Shown here in pieces: positions 29,068-36,360 of a stretch of DNA of 36,360 bases. The DNA comes from Candidatus Scalindua sp. (GTDB lineage: Bacteria > Planctomycetota > Brocadiia > Brocadiales > Scalinduaceae). The stretch lies in the NCBI GenBank assembly GCA_021776915.1, contig JAIQZU010000017.1, positions 1 through 36,360 on the forward strand, in the 5' to 3' direction. A model generated the notes under the pieces. It did not search any database, was not told the DNA's origin, and saw only the letters and a program-made list of their open reading frames with translations. Numbering within the stretch: the stretch's first letter is position 1; each line of letters starts with the position of its first letter. A program made the position numbers and the translations under genes.

Positions 29068-30414
29068 ATGTTTTCAAGGATTTTAGTGGCAAATAGGGGT
29101 GAAATAGCCCTTCGAATAATCAGGACCTGTAAAGAGCTTGGTATTGAAACTGTTGCAGTATACTCTAAAGCTGATAAAGACGCTCTATATTTGCAGTACG
29201 CAGATGCTCATGTTTGTATAGGGCCTGGTGAATCTGATGGAAGTTATTTAAATATTCCGAGTATTATCAGTGCTGCGGAGATTACAGATATAGAGGCTGT
29301 ACATCCGGGATACGGCTTTTTGGCTGAAAATAGTCATTTTGCAGAGGTATGTGAATCTTCCAATATTGTTTTTATCGGGCCTTCCTCCGAGGTTATGACT
29401 AAGATGGGTGATAAGACTCAAGCTAGAAATATAGCAGTTGAAAACAAGATACCTGTCATTCCTGGTAGCGATTCAGCTATAGAAAATCAGCAACATGCAT
29501 TGAAAGTGGCCCATGAGATAGGTTATCCTGTCTTGATAAAAGCCTCTTTTGGTGGTGGCGGGAGAGGTATGAGAGTTGCGCATAATGATATGAGTTTGGT
29601 TAATTCGCTTGCAATTGCTCAACGTGAGGCAAAAGTGGCGTTTAAAGATTCTTCCATATACATGGAGAAATACATAGAACCTTCACGTCACATTGAAGTC
29701 CAGATCGTAGCGGATAAATATGGTAATGTAATACATCTCGGCGAGAGGGATTGCACAATCCAAAGAAGACATCAGAAATTATTGGAGCAGACACCGGCAC
29801 CTAATTTAAAAGATCAATTACGTGAAGACATTTGTAAAGCGGCCATAAAGCTGGCAAAGGCGGTTAATTATACTAATGTTGGTACCGTCGAATTTCTGGT
29901 GGATGGAGAGGGAAAATACTATTTCATAGAAATGAATACAAGGCTTCAGGTTGAACATCCTGTGACAGAAATGGTTACCGGTATAGATTTGGTAAAAGAG
30001 CAAATAAGAATTGCTCATGGCGAGAGATTGAATTTGCGCCAGAAGAAGATAAAAAGTGAGGGGGTCTCAATAGAATGCAGGATAAATGCCGAAGACCCGG
30101 ATAACGGTTTTAGGCCTTATGCCGGTAAGATAACAATGTGCAGTGCTCCGGGAGGAAAAGGTGTCAGGGTGGATTCGCATGTTTACGCAGGATACGAGGT
30201 ACCTCCGTACTACGATTCATTATTAGGTAAGTTGATAGTACATAAAAAAAACAGAGAAGAGGCGATTGCCTGTATGAAAAGGGCCTTAAGCGAATACAGG
30301 ATTGAAGGTGTGAAGACAACAATACCCCTTCATCTTAATATTATTTCCGATCCAAGGTTTGTTACCGGTGATATTGATACCCATTTTGTTGAAAATCTTA
30401 TGGATGAGAAATAA
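29068..30414 (+). CDS. accC: Biotin carboxylase, acetyl-CoA carboxylase subunit
   Basis: A 448-residue ATP-grasp enzyme that carboxylates biotin on BCCP in the first step of fatty-acid synthesis. Motifs: [20 protein letters not shown] at the N-terminus, [11 protein letters not shown], the Gly-rich loop [12 protein letters not shown] (165-176 or so), [25 protein letters not shown], and [15 protein letters not shown] with catalytic Glu and Arg. The length is standard. AAGGAGG lies 13 nt before the ATG, longer than usual, yet the family start agrees with this codon. Confidence 0.95.
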
Positions 30415-30656: not shown

Positions 30657-31403
30657 ATGTTAAGTTGTAATTTAAGAAGATATATAATGATATGCTTCGT
30701 TATTTCTTTAGCATCGTTTGTAACATTTCAAAGTAGCCAGAGTTTTGGCGCACAGACGTGGAAATACATGGGCAATGCAGGTTGTAAATGCCACCTGTCT
30801 AAGGGTTGCTTTGAAGGTGAAGAATATAAGAAGATGAAGAATCAACATTATAATACATTCAGCAGGTTGGAAACCGATGAAGATAAGAGTAATCCTGAGT
30901 GCCTGAAATGCCATGCCACAGCGTATGGTATGAAGATAAAGAAGGGCAAGTCTAAACAGGGCAGTAAAGACTTTATTGAAGACGTTGGATGTGAAGCGTG
31001 CCACGGCCCGGGTGAAGGATATATAGATGTAAAGAAAAATTACAATAAAAAGGGCAAAGATGCGTTTAAGGAATTGCTGGAAAAAGACCCAATGACTGCC
31101 AGAAAGGTTCAATATGATGCAGGTCTGCTCGTAGCCGGTATAAATCAATACAAGACGATAAAAGAGCAATGCCTTAATTGCCACTGGGAAGATGCAAATG
31201 CCAAGAATAAGTGCCCTAAGTGCGAAGGTAAAGAAAACAGCCAGGGTGATCCCAGGCTCTTCACTGATAAGTATATTAAGGCGGATGATCACAGAGACCA
31301 TGATTCCATAGATGACGTTTTGCCCAAGGTAGACAAGAAGAAATGGAAGGGCTATATAGAGCAGGATCCGTGGTATCAGACAAGGCCACCTAATGCTAAG
31401 TAA
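30657..31403 (+). CDS. Cytochrome c554-like multihaem protein
   Basis: A 248-residue exported cytochrome. A signal peptide ends near SQSFGAQ (about 30). Haem-binding motifs: CKCH (43-46), CLKCH (82-86), CEACH followed by GPG (112-116) and CLNCH (172-176). The order, including the CEACHGPG block, matches the cytochrome c554 family of nitrifiers and anammox bacteria, which carries four haems. The first motif lacks one residue (CXCH instead of CXXCH). A further CPKC (186-189) has no His. The protein is Lys-rich, in line with docking to acidic partners. It has its own promoter and probably acts as a soluble periplasmic electron carrier. Confidence 0.82.
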   Translation: MLSCNLRRYIMICFVISLASFVTFQSSQSFGAQTWKYMGNAGCKCHLSKGCFEGEEYKKMKNQHYNTFSRLETDEDKSNPECLKCHATAYGMKIKKGKSKQGSKDFIEDVGCEACHGPGEGYIDVKKNYNKKGKDAFKELLEKDPMTARKVQYDAGLLVAGINQYKTIKEQCLNCHWEDANAKNKCPKCEGKENSQGDPRLFTDKYIKADDHRDHDSIDDVLPKVDKKKWKGYIEQDPWYQTRPPNAK

Positions 31404-31639: not shown

Positions 31640-32653
31640 GTGGTATCTTTGCTGAAAACAACGATAGATGTATCCGGGGATAGTAAAGCTTGTAGATTTG
31701 TATTTATTTCATGTCTTTTCTCATGTCTTTTGTTTTTCATTTCTGTTTATTCTTCAGAAAGTCTCTTTGCTCAAGAGAATAGCGAGTGTTTAGAGTGTCA
31801 TACAGACCCTGCGGAGGTAGATGATAAGGTAAGAGTCGATCCTGTTACTGGCGAAGTAGAGCTTGTATCGATGCTGGTTGATAAAGATGCTTTTCATGCA
31901 TCTGCTCATGGCGGTGAAGATTTTTACTGTATTGATTGTCACGCTGATTTAGAAGAATCAGAAGGCGAGCATTATCCTGATTTGCAGCCTGTTGATTGTA
32001 TAACATTCTGTCATGACGATCCTGCCGAAACATTTCTGGAAGGTAGTCATGCAGGTTTAATGCAGGAAAAAGGTATAGAGCTGCCTACCTGTAAACATTG
32101 CCATGCAGGAGAGAGATCCAAACGTGATACGCCCAGGGCTGACGATTTGTATCACAGGATGGATACGATAGGAAAATGTGGCGGATGTCACACTGAATAC
32201 TATGATTCTTATCGTAATAATCTCCATGGCCAGGTTACGGCGCTTGGGCATGTAGGCACTGATATAGCGACATGTGTTGATTGTCATGGTCAGCATACCA
32301 TATTGAACTCGTCTGATCCAGAGTCTACTCTGGGTCCGGAAAATGCTAAGGAGACTTGCGGTAAATGTCATCCGGGTGCAGGTGACAGTTTTATTAAACA
32401 TGTAGCGCATCCACAATATAAAAACCTTGGCTATTACAAGTCTGCTATGATTGCCTTGCTGAACATCAGGAAAGATTCCGGTCAGGTCAAGAGTATTATA
32501 AAGAGCCCGCAGATAATATTGACAATTCTCTTTGTAATGTATGTGGGCATTTTAGTAATAACCTTTGCGCAATTTGGAACGCATATGCTTTTGTCGTGGC
32601 TAGGCACATTATTGGACGAGCGAAAGGGAAAGGAGTCAGGACATGACAAGTAA
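31640..32653 (+). CDS. Membrane-anchored seven-haem c-type cytochrome
   Basis: A 337-residue protein. The hydrophobic N-terminal segment (19-38) is a signal peptide or anchor. Seven haem motifs follow: CLECH (50-54), CIDCH (97-101), CITFCH (120-125, CX3CH), CKHCH (151-155), CGGCH (180-184), CVDCH (212-216) and CGKCH (240-244), with several distal-ligand candidates (HASAHGG, GSHAG, LHGQ, HVAHP). A C-terminal transmembrane helix spans about 292-318. The start is GTG with AGAGGAGG upstream. Its stop overlaps the cytochrome b gene by 11 nt. The pair resembles cytochrome b/multihaem c modules that move electrons between quinol and the periplasm. Confidence 0.88.
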   Translation: MVSLLKTTIDVSGDSKACRFVFISCLFSCLLFFISVYSSESLFAQENSECLECHTDPAEVDDKVRVDPVTGEVELVSMLVDKDAFHASAHGGEDFYCIDCHADLEESEGEHYPDLQPVDCITFCHDDPAETFLEGSHAGLMQEKGIELPTCKHCHAGERSKRDTPRADDLYHRMDTIGKCGGCHTEYYDSYRNNLHGQVTALGHVGTDIATCVDCHGQHTILNSSDPESTLGPENAKETCGKCHPGAGDSFIKHVAHPQYKNLGYYKSAMIALLNIRKDSGQVKSIIKSPQIILTILFVMYVGILVITFAQFGTHMLLSWLGTLLDERKGKESGHDK

Positions 32654-33551
32654 TAATAATACTTTGCTAAGATTTGGTCTGTTTCATCGATTTGGCCATT
32701 TTCTCATAATTATCAGCTTTTTTGGATTAGTGTTGACCGGTATGCCTCTGGTTTTTAAAGATTATGCATGGGCTCACTTCCTGTATAATCTTATGGGAGG
32801 TTATCCTACCGCTGGTAATATTCACAGAATTTGTGCTCTCATTACTTTTATTGCAGTCTTTCTGCATTTTGCGTTTCTAACATTTGAAACCCTTGTAAGG
32901 AAGAATAGGAACATTTTCTGGGGACCTGACTCTCTACTGTTACAACCAAAGGATATCATGAATGTGCTGGGAGATATTTTATGGTTTTTCAGATTAGGAA
33001 AAAGACCACAATTTGACAGATATATATATTGGGAAAAGTTTGAATATCTTTCGCTTATGTGGGGTACCATGGTTATGGCTGTTACAGGTTTTATGCTTTG
33101 GTTTCCAGTGCAAACTGCTAGTCTGGTTCCTGTCAAAATTGCAACCTTTATAGATTTGCCGAGTATCGCACTGGTTGCTCACAGGTATGAAGCCTTGCTG
33201 GCGGCAGGTTTCATCTTTTCCATTCATTTCCTGCATACTCACCTCTTGCCTGAGAATATACCTGTTGATGAGGCAATGTTTACAGGAAAGGTTGACGAGG
33301 GTCACATGAAACACGAAAGAGGCGCTTATTATGAGAGGTTGAAAGAAGAGGGGCAATTGGAGGAACTTAAGGTTCAGCCTGCATCTCGTAGGGCCAAATT
33401 TGTGTCAAAACTGGTGGGGCTTCCACTTCTTGGAGTTGGCTTGCTTATGGTCGGTTTTATGTTATCATCGTTAATATGTTCAATTACGTCTGTAATTGCA
33501 GATTTGACCAAAAATATTCATTTTGATATTTTTAGTATTTTTGCGTTCTGA
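32643..33551 (+). CDS. Cytochrome b membrane subunit (FdhI/thiosulfate-reductase-type)
   Basis: A 302-residue protein with four to five transmembrane helices in the haem-binding half (about 15-35, 58-80, 135-155, 180-200) and another at 260-285. Candidate haem b ligands are His15, His19, His61, His75, His180, His195 and His198/200, enough for two haems. The pattern YIYWEKFEYLSLMWGTMVMAV and FLHTHLLPENIP resembles the gamma subunit of formate dehydrogenases and related quinone-reactive cytochromes. Overlap with the seven-haem gene implies one complex: the b subunit handles quinone and the c subunit passes electrons outward or inward. Direction cannot be read from sequence. Confidence 0.85.
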   Translation: MTSNNNTLLRFGLFHRFGHFLIIISFFGLVLTGMPLVFKDYAWAHFLYNLMGGYPTAGNIHRICALITFIAVFLHFAFLTFETLVRKNRNIFWGPDSLLLQPKDIMNVLGDILWFFRLGKRPQFDRYIYWEKFEYLSLMWGTMVMAVTGFMLWFPVQTASLVPVKIATFIDLPSIALVAHRYEALLAAGFIFSIHFLHTHLLPENIPVDEAMFTGKVDEGHMKHERGAYYERLKEEGQLEELKVQPASRRAKFVSKLVGLPLLGVGLLMVGFMLSSLICSITSVIADLTKNIHFDIFSIFAF

Positions 33552-33595: not shown

Positions 33596-34987
33596 ATGGT
33601 TAGCAGGGTGCTGATAACTGATGACGAGGAGCGTATAATACGCAATATCAGGGTTATCTTTGACGAGATGGAAAATATCGAGGTTGTAAAGGCGCAAGAC
33701 GTAACTTCGATAGTAGATTTCGTTGAGCATGAAAGGCTTCATCTAATCGTTACTGATCTGAGAGTGCCTAAGATGGGCAGATTGGAATTCTTGAAGCAGG
33801 TTAAGTCAATGGATCCTGATCTGCCGGTGATTGTTGTAACCGGTGACGACTCCATTGAGACGGCGGTAGAATCGATGAAGGAAGGCGCGTTTGACTACAT
33901 TACAAAGCCGTTTGAAGATGGTACGCTTTCTGTCGCAGTGGAAAAAGCTCTTAAAATGAGATCTTTGACATTGGAAAACAGGTATCTTCGGAAGGAGTTG
34001 GAGTCGCATTATAATTTCGGAAATATCGTTGGTAACTCACCAAAAATATTAGAAGTGCTTTTGTTGGCTGGAGATGTTTCCAGGACGGATTCGACTGTAT
34101 TTGTTTATGGAGAGAGTGGTACTGGGAAGGAACTTGTGGCAAGAGCTATTCATTTTAATAGTTTAAGGAAGAGCGGCCCATTGGTTGCGATTAACTGCGC
34201 TGCGTTGCCTGAGAATTTATTAGAGAGTGAACTGTTTGGTTATGAAAAGGGCGCCTTTACGGGTGCAGAGAAGTGCAAGAAGGGCCGTTTTGAGTTGGCT
34301 AACGGAGGCACTCTGTTTCTCGATGAAATATCTGAAATGAATCCCATTGTTCAGGCCAAAGTGTTAAGAGTTGTTGAAGAAAGGGAGCTGGAGCGGCTTG
34401 GAGCGTCTGAAACTATCAAAGTTGATGTAAGGATAATATGCGCCAGTAATAAGAATCTTGAAGAGTATGTTAAAAAAGGTCTGTTCCGGGAGGATTTATA
34501 CTATCGCATAAATGTGTTTCCCATAAATATACCTCCACTCAGGGCGAGGCCTGAAGATATTTTGCAATTGGCGAGGGGTTTCGTTGGTCTATTCTCTGCT
34601 AAGATGGGTAAATTATCATTAAAAATGTCAAAGAAGGTTGAAAATATACTAGTTTCAAGTAAGTGGGAGGGCAATGTGAGGGAATTGAAAAATTGCCTGG
34701 AAAGGGCCGTTATTCTGTGTAAAGGAGATTTGATATCAGAAGAACATCTTCCGGTGGCTTTAGTTAAAGATTCTATGTCAGGCTATGAGAATGGTAAAGA
34801 GAATGCGTTAAAGACGGTGGATTTTAATTTGCCCCCAGAGGGGATTTCAATAGATGAATTGGAAAAGCATCTTGTTTTGCAGGCGTTGAAAAAAAGCAAA
34901 AACAATAAAACTAAAGCTGCTAAACTGCTGGGTCTCAGCAGGGGAACGTTCAGGTATAGATTGGAAAAGTATGACAATAATAACTAA
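33596..34987 (+). CDS. NtrC-family sigma-54-dependent response regulator
   Basis: A 463-residue activator. The receiver domain (1-120) has Asp9/Asp10, phospho-acceptor Asp54, Thr82-type residue in VVTGDD and Lys104 in YITKPFE. The AAA+ domain has Walker A GESGTGKE (173-180), the sigma-54-contacting GAFTGA loop (219-224), GGTLFLDEI, and an arginine-finger region (REDLYYRINVFPI). A Fis-type helix-turn-helix lies at the end (TKAAKLLGLSRGTFRYRLEK). It starts 44 bp after the cytochrome b gene, so it is likely cotranscribed and may control this module or its neighbours with a sigma-54 promoter. No -24/-12 site was confirmed nearby, and no histidine kinase is present. Confidence 0.92.
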   Translation: MVSRVLITDDEERIIRNIRVIFDEMENIEVVKAQDVTSIVDFVEHERLHLIVTDLRVPKMGRLEFLKQVKSMDPDLPVIVVTGDDSIETAVESMKEGAFDYITKPFEDGTLSVAVEKALKMRSLTLENRYLRKELESHYNFGNIVGNSPKILEVLLLAGDVSRTDSTVFVYGESGTGKELVARAIHFNSLRKSGPLVAINCAALPENLLESELFGYEKGAFTGAEKCKKGRFELANGGTLFLDEISEMNPIVQAKVLRVVEERELERLGASETIKVDVRIICASNKNLEEYVKKGLFREDLYYRINVFPINIPPLRARPEDILQLARGFVGLFSAKMGKLSLKMSKKVENILVSSKWEGNVRELKNCLERAVILCKGDLISEEHLPVALVKDSMSGYENGKENALKTVDFNLPPEGISIDELEKHLVLQALKKSKNNKTKAAKLLGLSRGTFRYRLEKYDNNN

Positions 34988-35159: not shown

Positions 35160-35245
35160 GGCATGAAGTATTTTGGCACGTGATATGCGCAATCTCAATA
35201 TATTGCGTGTTATATCGTTAATATAGAATGAAAGGGGGTGAAGAG

Positions 35246-35824
35246 GTGTATACATTTAGACGTTACTTTGACAAAGCTTTGTATATTGGTGCCTTTTTTT
35301 GTGTGGTATTGTTTTTGGGTAGTCAGATGAATTTTGCAGTGGCAGAGGGTGAAAAAGAATGTCCGAAGAAAGAGAATGAAAAGTTGTTTTGGTGCACAGA
35401 GTGCAAAGAGATTTTCACCTGGAATGAATGTGGTAACTTGAAATACATCTGGGATACCAAGAAGCATAAAGCTGGTGAAGAAATCGCTACGCATAAAATG
35501 GAACCTTCTTGGTCATGTTTAAGGAAGGAATATCATTGCGTAAACGATAAATGTGAGAATTCAAAGACTTGCTATGCTTTCAACATTGGCTTTTGCGAAT
35601 TGTGCAATGATGACTTGACCGCTAATATGACTAGAGCAAAGCTTGACTTCAAGTGTACAAAATGTGGTAAGGAGTATACCGAACCTGGAGCAGGGTTTGA
35701 GATTGATCATAAGAAGGAATATGCGGAACATTTAATGACTTTCGGTAATTGTGCTGATTGTGGAGGAGAACTTGACACCATTTGCAGAATGTCTGGCACA
35801 TGTCCACATATTCCAGATTTTTAG
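35246..35824 (+). CDS. Exported cysteine-rich protein with zinc-ribbon-like CXXC pairs
   Basis: About 192 residues. A signal peptide (ALYIGAFFCVVLFLGSQMNF) precedes a soluble domain with many Cys: CTEC, CVNDKC, CELC, CTKC, CADC, plus singles. No CXXCH haem motif is present. The Cys pairs in CTKCGKEY and CADCGGEL look like zinc ribbons or rubredoxin-like knuckles. I prefer GTG 35246 because the AAGGGGGTGA Shine-Dalgarno lies just before it, whereas the ATG at 35228 precedes that sequence and has no ribosome-binding site. Family unknown. Location after cytochrome genes suggests a periplasmic redox or metal-handling role, an inference only. Confidence 0.7.
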   Translation: MYTFRRYFDKALYIGAFFCVVLFLGSQMNFAVAEGEKECPKKENEKLFWCTECKEIFTWNECGNLKYIWDTKKHKAGEEIATHKMEPSWSCLRKEYHCVNDKCENSKTCYAFNIGFCELCNDDLTANMTRAKLDFKCTKCGKEYTEPGAGFEIDHKKEYAEHLMTFGNCADCGGELDTICRMSGTCPHIPDF

Positions 35825-35865: not shown

Positions 35866-36360
35866 ATGAAGAAAAAGGCTTGGTTATTAGGTTTCTTGGG
35901 TGCTGGAGTATTGAGCTTGGCATTGGCTCAAAGCGCCGGTGCCGGCTTCATACAGGGTACAAGGGTGAGAACAGAGCATCCATCACCATTCCACGTGTCT
36001 GTTTCGCCTGATGGTGGGACATTGGCTTTATGCAATCAGTCCGGCCATAGCGTGACGTTTGTTGATGCGAGGTCAAAAAAGGTGATCGGAGAGGTGCCTG
36101 TTCAGGTTCAACCTGAAGCGTCTGTGTTTACACTGGACGGACGTACTCTGTTTGTTTGTAATGCAGAGAGTGATACTGTATCAGTTATTGATATAGGTAA
36201 AAAGGCAGTCGTTAAAACTATAAAAGTTGGTGACTGGCCTTGTAGTATTAAACTGTCAAAAGACGGGTCAAAGGCTTATGTATGTTGTTCCGGTAGTATG
36301 TGGAATACGGTTGATATCATTGACACTGCAATGAATAGCAAAATCGGTGAGATCAGAACA
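35866..36360 (+). CDS. YVTN beta-propeller protein, 5' part (cut by window end)
   Basis: The first 165 codons are visible. A signal peptide (WLLGFLGAGVLSLALAQSAG) is followed by repeated beta-propeller blades of the YVTN type: HVSVSPDGGTLALCNQSGHS, then VFVDARSKKVIGEVPV, SVFTLDGRTLFVCNAESDTV, SVIDIGKKAVVKTIKVGDWP, and IKLSKDGSKAYVCCSG. GGAGG lies 6 nt before the ATG. In this setting such propellers occur alone or fused to cytochrome c domains; the C-terminal part outside the window is needed to tell. It begins 41 bp after the Cys-rich gene, so probably belongs to the same unit. Confidence 0.85.
   Translation, partial: MKKKAWLLGFLGAGVLSLALAQSAGAGFIQGTRVRTEHPSPFHVSVSPDGGTLALCNQSGHSVTFVDARSKKVIGEVPVQVQPEASVFTLDGRTLFVCNAESDTVSVIDIGKKAVVKTIKVGDWPCSIKLSKDGSKAYVCCSGSMWNTVDIIDTAMNSKIGEIRT

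Follow-up and report, generated by a model that had tools for sequence, protein, structure and literature searches.

Among the genes that lie beside hydrazine synthase (HZS) in an anammox bacterium, one encodes a cytochrome c with a haem motif that is one residue shorter than the ordinary CXXCH. This raises the questions of whether the contracted motif is genuine, whether it carries haem, and whether its haem requires an attachment system of its own. The window, by which we mean the whole stretch of 36,360 nucleotides of Candidatus Scalindua sp. that was analysed (GCA_021776915.1, contig JAIQZU010000017.1), contains on the plus strand an open reading frame of 248 aa (30657..31403), which its frame, its PF13435 match, its motifs and the order of its gene cluster identify as a predicted tetrahaem c554-like cytochrome orthologous to kuste2854. 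The peptide NAGCKCHLS is the in-frame translation of positions 30774-30800, in which G-CKCH forms residues 42-46; the contracted motif itself (residues 43-46; 30783..30794, plus strand) is spelled by codons 43-46 as TGT AAA TGC CAC. It is followed on the same strand by three ordinary CXXCH motifs, CLKCH (residues 82-86; 30900..30914), CEACH (residues 112-116; 30990..31004), and CLNCH (residues 172-176; 31170..31184), which brings the number of haem motifs in the protein to four. A preliminary description of this DNA had correctly placed the gene in an anammox setting, assigned it to the c554-like family, and noted a contracted motif with unambiguous codons at the position of the first motif; it had missed the HZS cluster and the earlier publication of the motif. 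The window protein scores 38.2 bits against the PF13435 profile (Pfam Cytochrome_C554; cut-off 20.8), and 23 bits against NF043010 (CycA, the Nitrosomonas c554 proper), below the equivalog cut-off of 400 bits. Its predicted structure (with 10 relatives) is of low confidence, with a mean pLDDT of 39.5.

The neighbouring genes, all on the plus strand, define the identity of the protein more closely. They encode a kuste2855-like heptahaem cytochrome with seven motifs, one of them CX3CH (31640..32653), a kuste2856-like formate dehydrogenase gamma-type cytochrome b (32643..33551; assigned by gene order, with TIGR01583 below its cut-off), a kuste2857-like sigma-54 response regulator of the AtoC type (33596..34987), a Cys-rich protein of unknown function that has no family match and is kuste2858-like by its position in the gene order (35228..35824), and the first part of hydrazine synthase beta, truncated by the window edge (35866..36360; match to 5c2v_B, E 2.1e-61). 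A table in PMC6423088 gives the same gene order for kuste2854-2861 of Kuenenia stuttgartiensis, and a passage of PMC12053348 describes this same cluster order, although in the Kuenenia cluster the gene for the gamma subunit is listed before that for beta, unlike in the window. The succession of tetrahaem cytochrome, heptahaem cytochrome, cytochrome b, sigma-54 regulator, unknown protein, and HZS beta thus corresponds to kuste2854-2861 and makes the window protein the kuste2854 orthologue. The heptahaem gene follows in order and on the same strand at 35 of the 37 loci checked, while at the remaining two (L070, L073) the available sequence stops inside the tetrahaem gene. At all 35 loci the heptahaem protein has the expanded CX3CH motif (CITFCH or CVTFCH), which forms residues 120-125 in the window, so that neighbouring genes bear one expanded and one contracted haem motif.

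Some further features of the locus were recorded. A biotin carboxylase-like gene (29068-30414, plus strand) lies immediately upstream of the cytochrome, and a match to it is found upstream of the cytochrome in 33/37 loci. Four loci, all of family f2 (L060, L069, L071, L072), have the cluster without a match to the sigma-54 regulator. A promoter scan returned 6 candidates against a mean of 4.0 (sd 2.1) in shuffles, no clear excess. A second copy of HZS beta, 90% identical, is found on another contig (G000, C63:521-1015) within an open frame of 701 aa, and several same-genus genomes have HZS beta frames of ~690-707 aa, compared to ~380-390 aa in many others, which suggests that the long frames may encode a beta-gamma fusion. 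An HZS beta-gamma fusion occurs in Scalindua. At E<=1e-30 the HZS beta gene was missed in 17/59 genomes, probably because repeated copies break the assemblies.

Conservation of the site bears directly on the question of error or chance. The orthologue search covered the window's own genome together with 58 relatives, 59 genomes in all, and gave matches in 57; those in G009 and G020 were weak and at paralogue level and were left out, leaving 55 Brocadiales genomes with an orthologue. These genomes provide 56 rows, after exclusion of proteins identical to other rows (L038-L047), a 51-residue fragment (L074), and two copies of the window (L005, L008). Two rows come from one genome, G031, where the gene for the CKCH cytochrome occurs twice, in copies that differ (L060, L073). 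The residues G42-C43-K44-C45-H46 are identical in 56/56 rows, both Cys and the His included, while the five codons occur in 25 different 15-base spellings, indicating that the DNA has drifted silently and the protein site has stayed fixed. In a class-wide search at E<=1e-12 the orthologue was found in 56/62 Brocadiales genomes and in none of the 13 other genomes of the class, and the genome that this search added (G415) has CKCH too. The six Brocadiales genomes without the cytochrome gene have a best HZS-beta match of only 3.8e-9, and their lack of the gene tells little because no good hydrazine synthase beta match is present there either. That CKCH is a sequencing or assembly indel within an ordinary CXXCH motif is excluded by the recurrence of the same in-frame motif in every orthologue row, which leaves this explanation a practically negligible probability; the comparison of anammox orthologues proposed in the preliminary description, in which such an error would appear as CXXCH in all homologues, showed CKCH in all of them. 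A CXCH motif is present in 316/20000 shuffles of the mature sequence, so it could arise by chance in one protein, but its conservation throughout the orthologue rows rules this out.

The origin of the motif was approached by aligning seven orthologues with 16 c554-like relatives, namely four Brocadiales paralogues and 12 non-Brocadiales proteins, each taken from a different genome among the 20 for which a match was listed. All 16 relatives have CKxCH at the aligned position, and the simplest account is therefore that CKCH represents CKxCH minus one codon after the Lys. In a tree that included 6 of the 16 relatives, the orthologues, every one with CKCH, group together with full support and separately from these six, and the window protein clusters with rows of the same genus; beyond the orthologue grouping the tree is unsafe to read, given its long branches. 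The loss of the codon probably predates the diversification of the sampled anammox order, and CKCH would have remained unchanged since. CXCH motifs reportedly occur across bacteria and archaea, and the haems of the Kuenenia protein are said to have His/Lys, His/Cys, and two His/His ligations. With such ligation, C186 and one of the invariant Lys residues are natural candidates for axial ligands. C186 is found in all 55 orthologue rows that reach that far and in 0/16 relatives, and the Lys residues invariant among orthologues at positions 58, 126, 132, and 134 are Lys in 2, 1, 2, and 3 of the 16 relatives, respectively. In contrast, H64 is common to 15/16 relatives and H212 to 8/16; on the basis of their conservation these two His residues are candidate ligands as well.

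Whether CKCH holds a haem is addressed mainly by work on the Kuenenia orthologue. A passage of PMC7096707 mentions the contracted CKCH in K. stuttgartiensis, where the protein that bears it is tetraheme and part of the HZS apparatus, and the relevant text of PMC8388095 presents kuste2854 as a tetraheme protein that exchanges electrons with HZS. According to papers that cite it, Ferousi et al. (2019, J Biol Chem 294:16953) described the Kuenenia CKCH as a functional haem-binding motif; the reference list of PMC12607021 also includes this study. No paper was retrieved in a literature search for KsTH together with hydrazine synthase. As the published protein, kustc0563 was considered and rejected, having one haem; kuste2854 is the right one. 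The preliminary description had allowed for a three-haem protein, in which CKCH would be without covalent haem, and kuste2854 is in fact labelled triheme in the table or text of PMC6423088 and PMC12053348, the number that a count of CXXCH alone would give. However, neither the two Cys nor the His of CKCH vary, and the above passages present the orthologue as tetraheme with CKCH as a haem-binding motif (PMC8388095; PMC7096707), which disfavours a trihaem cytochrome and renders it highly improbable. While the sequence, its invariance, the cluster, and the origin of the motif by alignment come directly from this analysis, the haem-binding motif, the tetraheme state, and the electron exchange with HZS are taken from papers on the orthologue. 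By orthology with the Kuenenia protein, the Scalindua cytochrome would carry four attached haems, the first putatively bound via the contracted CKCH, and would exchange electrons with HZS. The most likely route of electrons would lead from a membrane module, formed by the heptahaem protein and cytochrome b, to the tetrahaem cytochrome and on to HZS, in the anammoxosome.

The preliminary description had also suggested that the short motif may need a dedicated lyase. Among the hits for the five cluster genes that were scanned there is no lyase or Ccs family, and a dedicated lyase within the cluster was rejected. Elsewhere in the window's own genome, contig C27 contains a canonical CcsA together with CcsB, whereas on contig C38 the CcsA is of the modified type (WGYVAWGSYFLWDAKLLW) and its CcsB neighbour is divergent. 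Contig C88 holds one more CcsA relative, which adjoins a gene that resembles hemA (the names hemA and HemX were given by recognition). That the modified CcsA-CcsB pair of anammox bacteria is a dedicated synthase for the CKCH haem would agree with its presence in this genome, with the strong matches to the modified CcsA in 57/60 Brocadiales genomes, compared with 3/13 other genomes of the class in which the matches are all weak (E 2e-13 to 8e-12), and with a passage of PMC4222556 that reports a second, modified pair from each of the four anammox genera studied. This pair, however, is located outside the HZS cluster, and two genomes of family f4 (G019 and G021, each 93% complete) have CKCH and no modified CcsA; of their two CcsA-type genes, one bears the canonical motif, and in the other, a relative, neither motif pattern was found. 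A third genome without the modified CcsA (G014) is 88% complete and may be incomplete at this point. The modified pair consequently does not look obligatory for CKCH, although two draft genomes are thin evidence, and a dedicated synthase, like the proposed lyase, appears unlikely. Haem attachment would rather proceed through the ordinary System II (CcsA-CcsB), the modified second pair being the less likely route. Quite doubtful as a whole is a combined reading in which the codon was deleted before the anammox radiation, K58, K126, K134, and C186 were gained as possible unusual ligands, and a modified CcsA-CcsB loads the haem in most lineages and is dispensable in family f4. We consider it very probable that the window gene encodes the kuste2854-orthologous tetrahaem cytochrome of the HZS cluster, with haem 1 bound via a CKCH that arose by codon loss, a likely role as electron carrier to HZS, and System II maturation.

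A shortened haem-attachment motif is thus a fixed feature of an electron carrier encoded beside hydrazine synthase in 56 genomes of the anammox order, and because it is fixed as CKCH, annotation that relies on CXXCH only will miscount the haems of this cytochrome. The motif is genuine and conserved, but it is already known, as the window gene is an orthologue of the published kuste2854 case. The additions made here are modest and consist of the order-wide invariance of CKCH, its origin by a one-codon deletion, and the fixed CX3CH of the adjacent heptahaem protein, along with two genomes (G019 and G021) that speak against the need for a special haem synthase and can help to test it.

Several known systems can be compared with this cytochrome. 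The CXXCK of NrfA and the CX15CH of MccA are, like CKCH, haem sites that depart from CXXCH; both need dedicated maturation genes, as stated in a passage of PMC7096707, and this need is established for these two sites and not for CKCH. Sequence comparison returned a single relative with a solved structure, the Nitrosomonas europaea cytochrome c554 (1bvb, 1ft5), which belongs to the same broad family; the match is weak (E 1.3e-4, residues 69-145) and aligns the region around motifs 2 and 3. In this c554 the first motif is CXXCH. Its partner is hydroxylamine oxidoreductase and not HZS, according to the relevant text of PMC8388095. Within the anammox order, the window protein shares 48-56% identity with the orthologues of family f5, and the closest counterpart is kuste2854 of Kuenenia stuttgartiensis, which has the CKCH motif, the tetraheme description, and the same neighbours in the HZS cluster in common with the window protein and differs in species alone.
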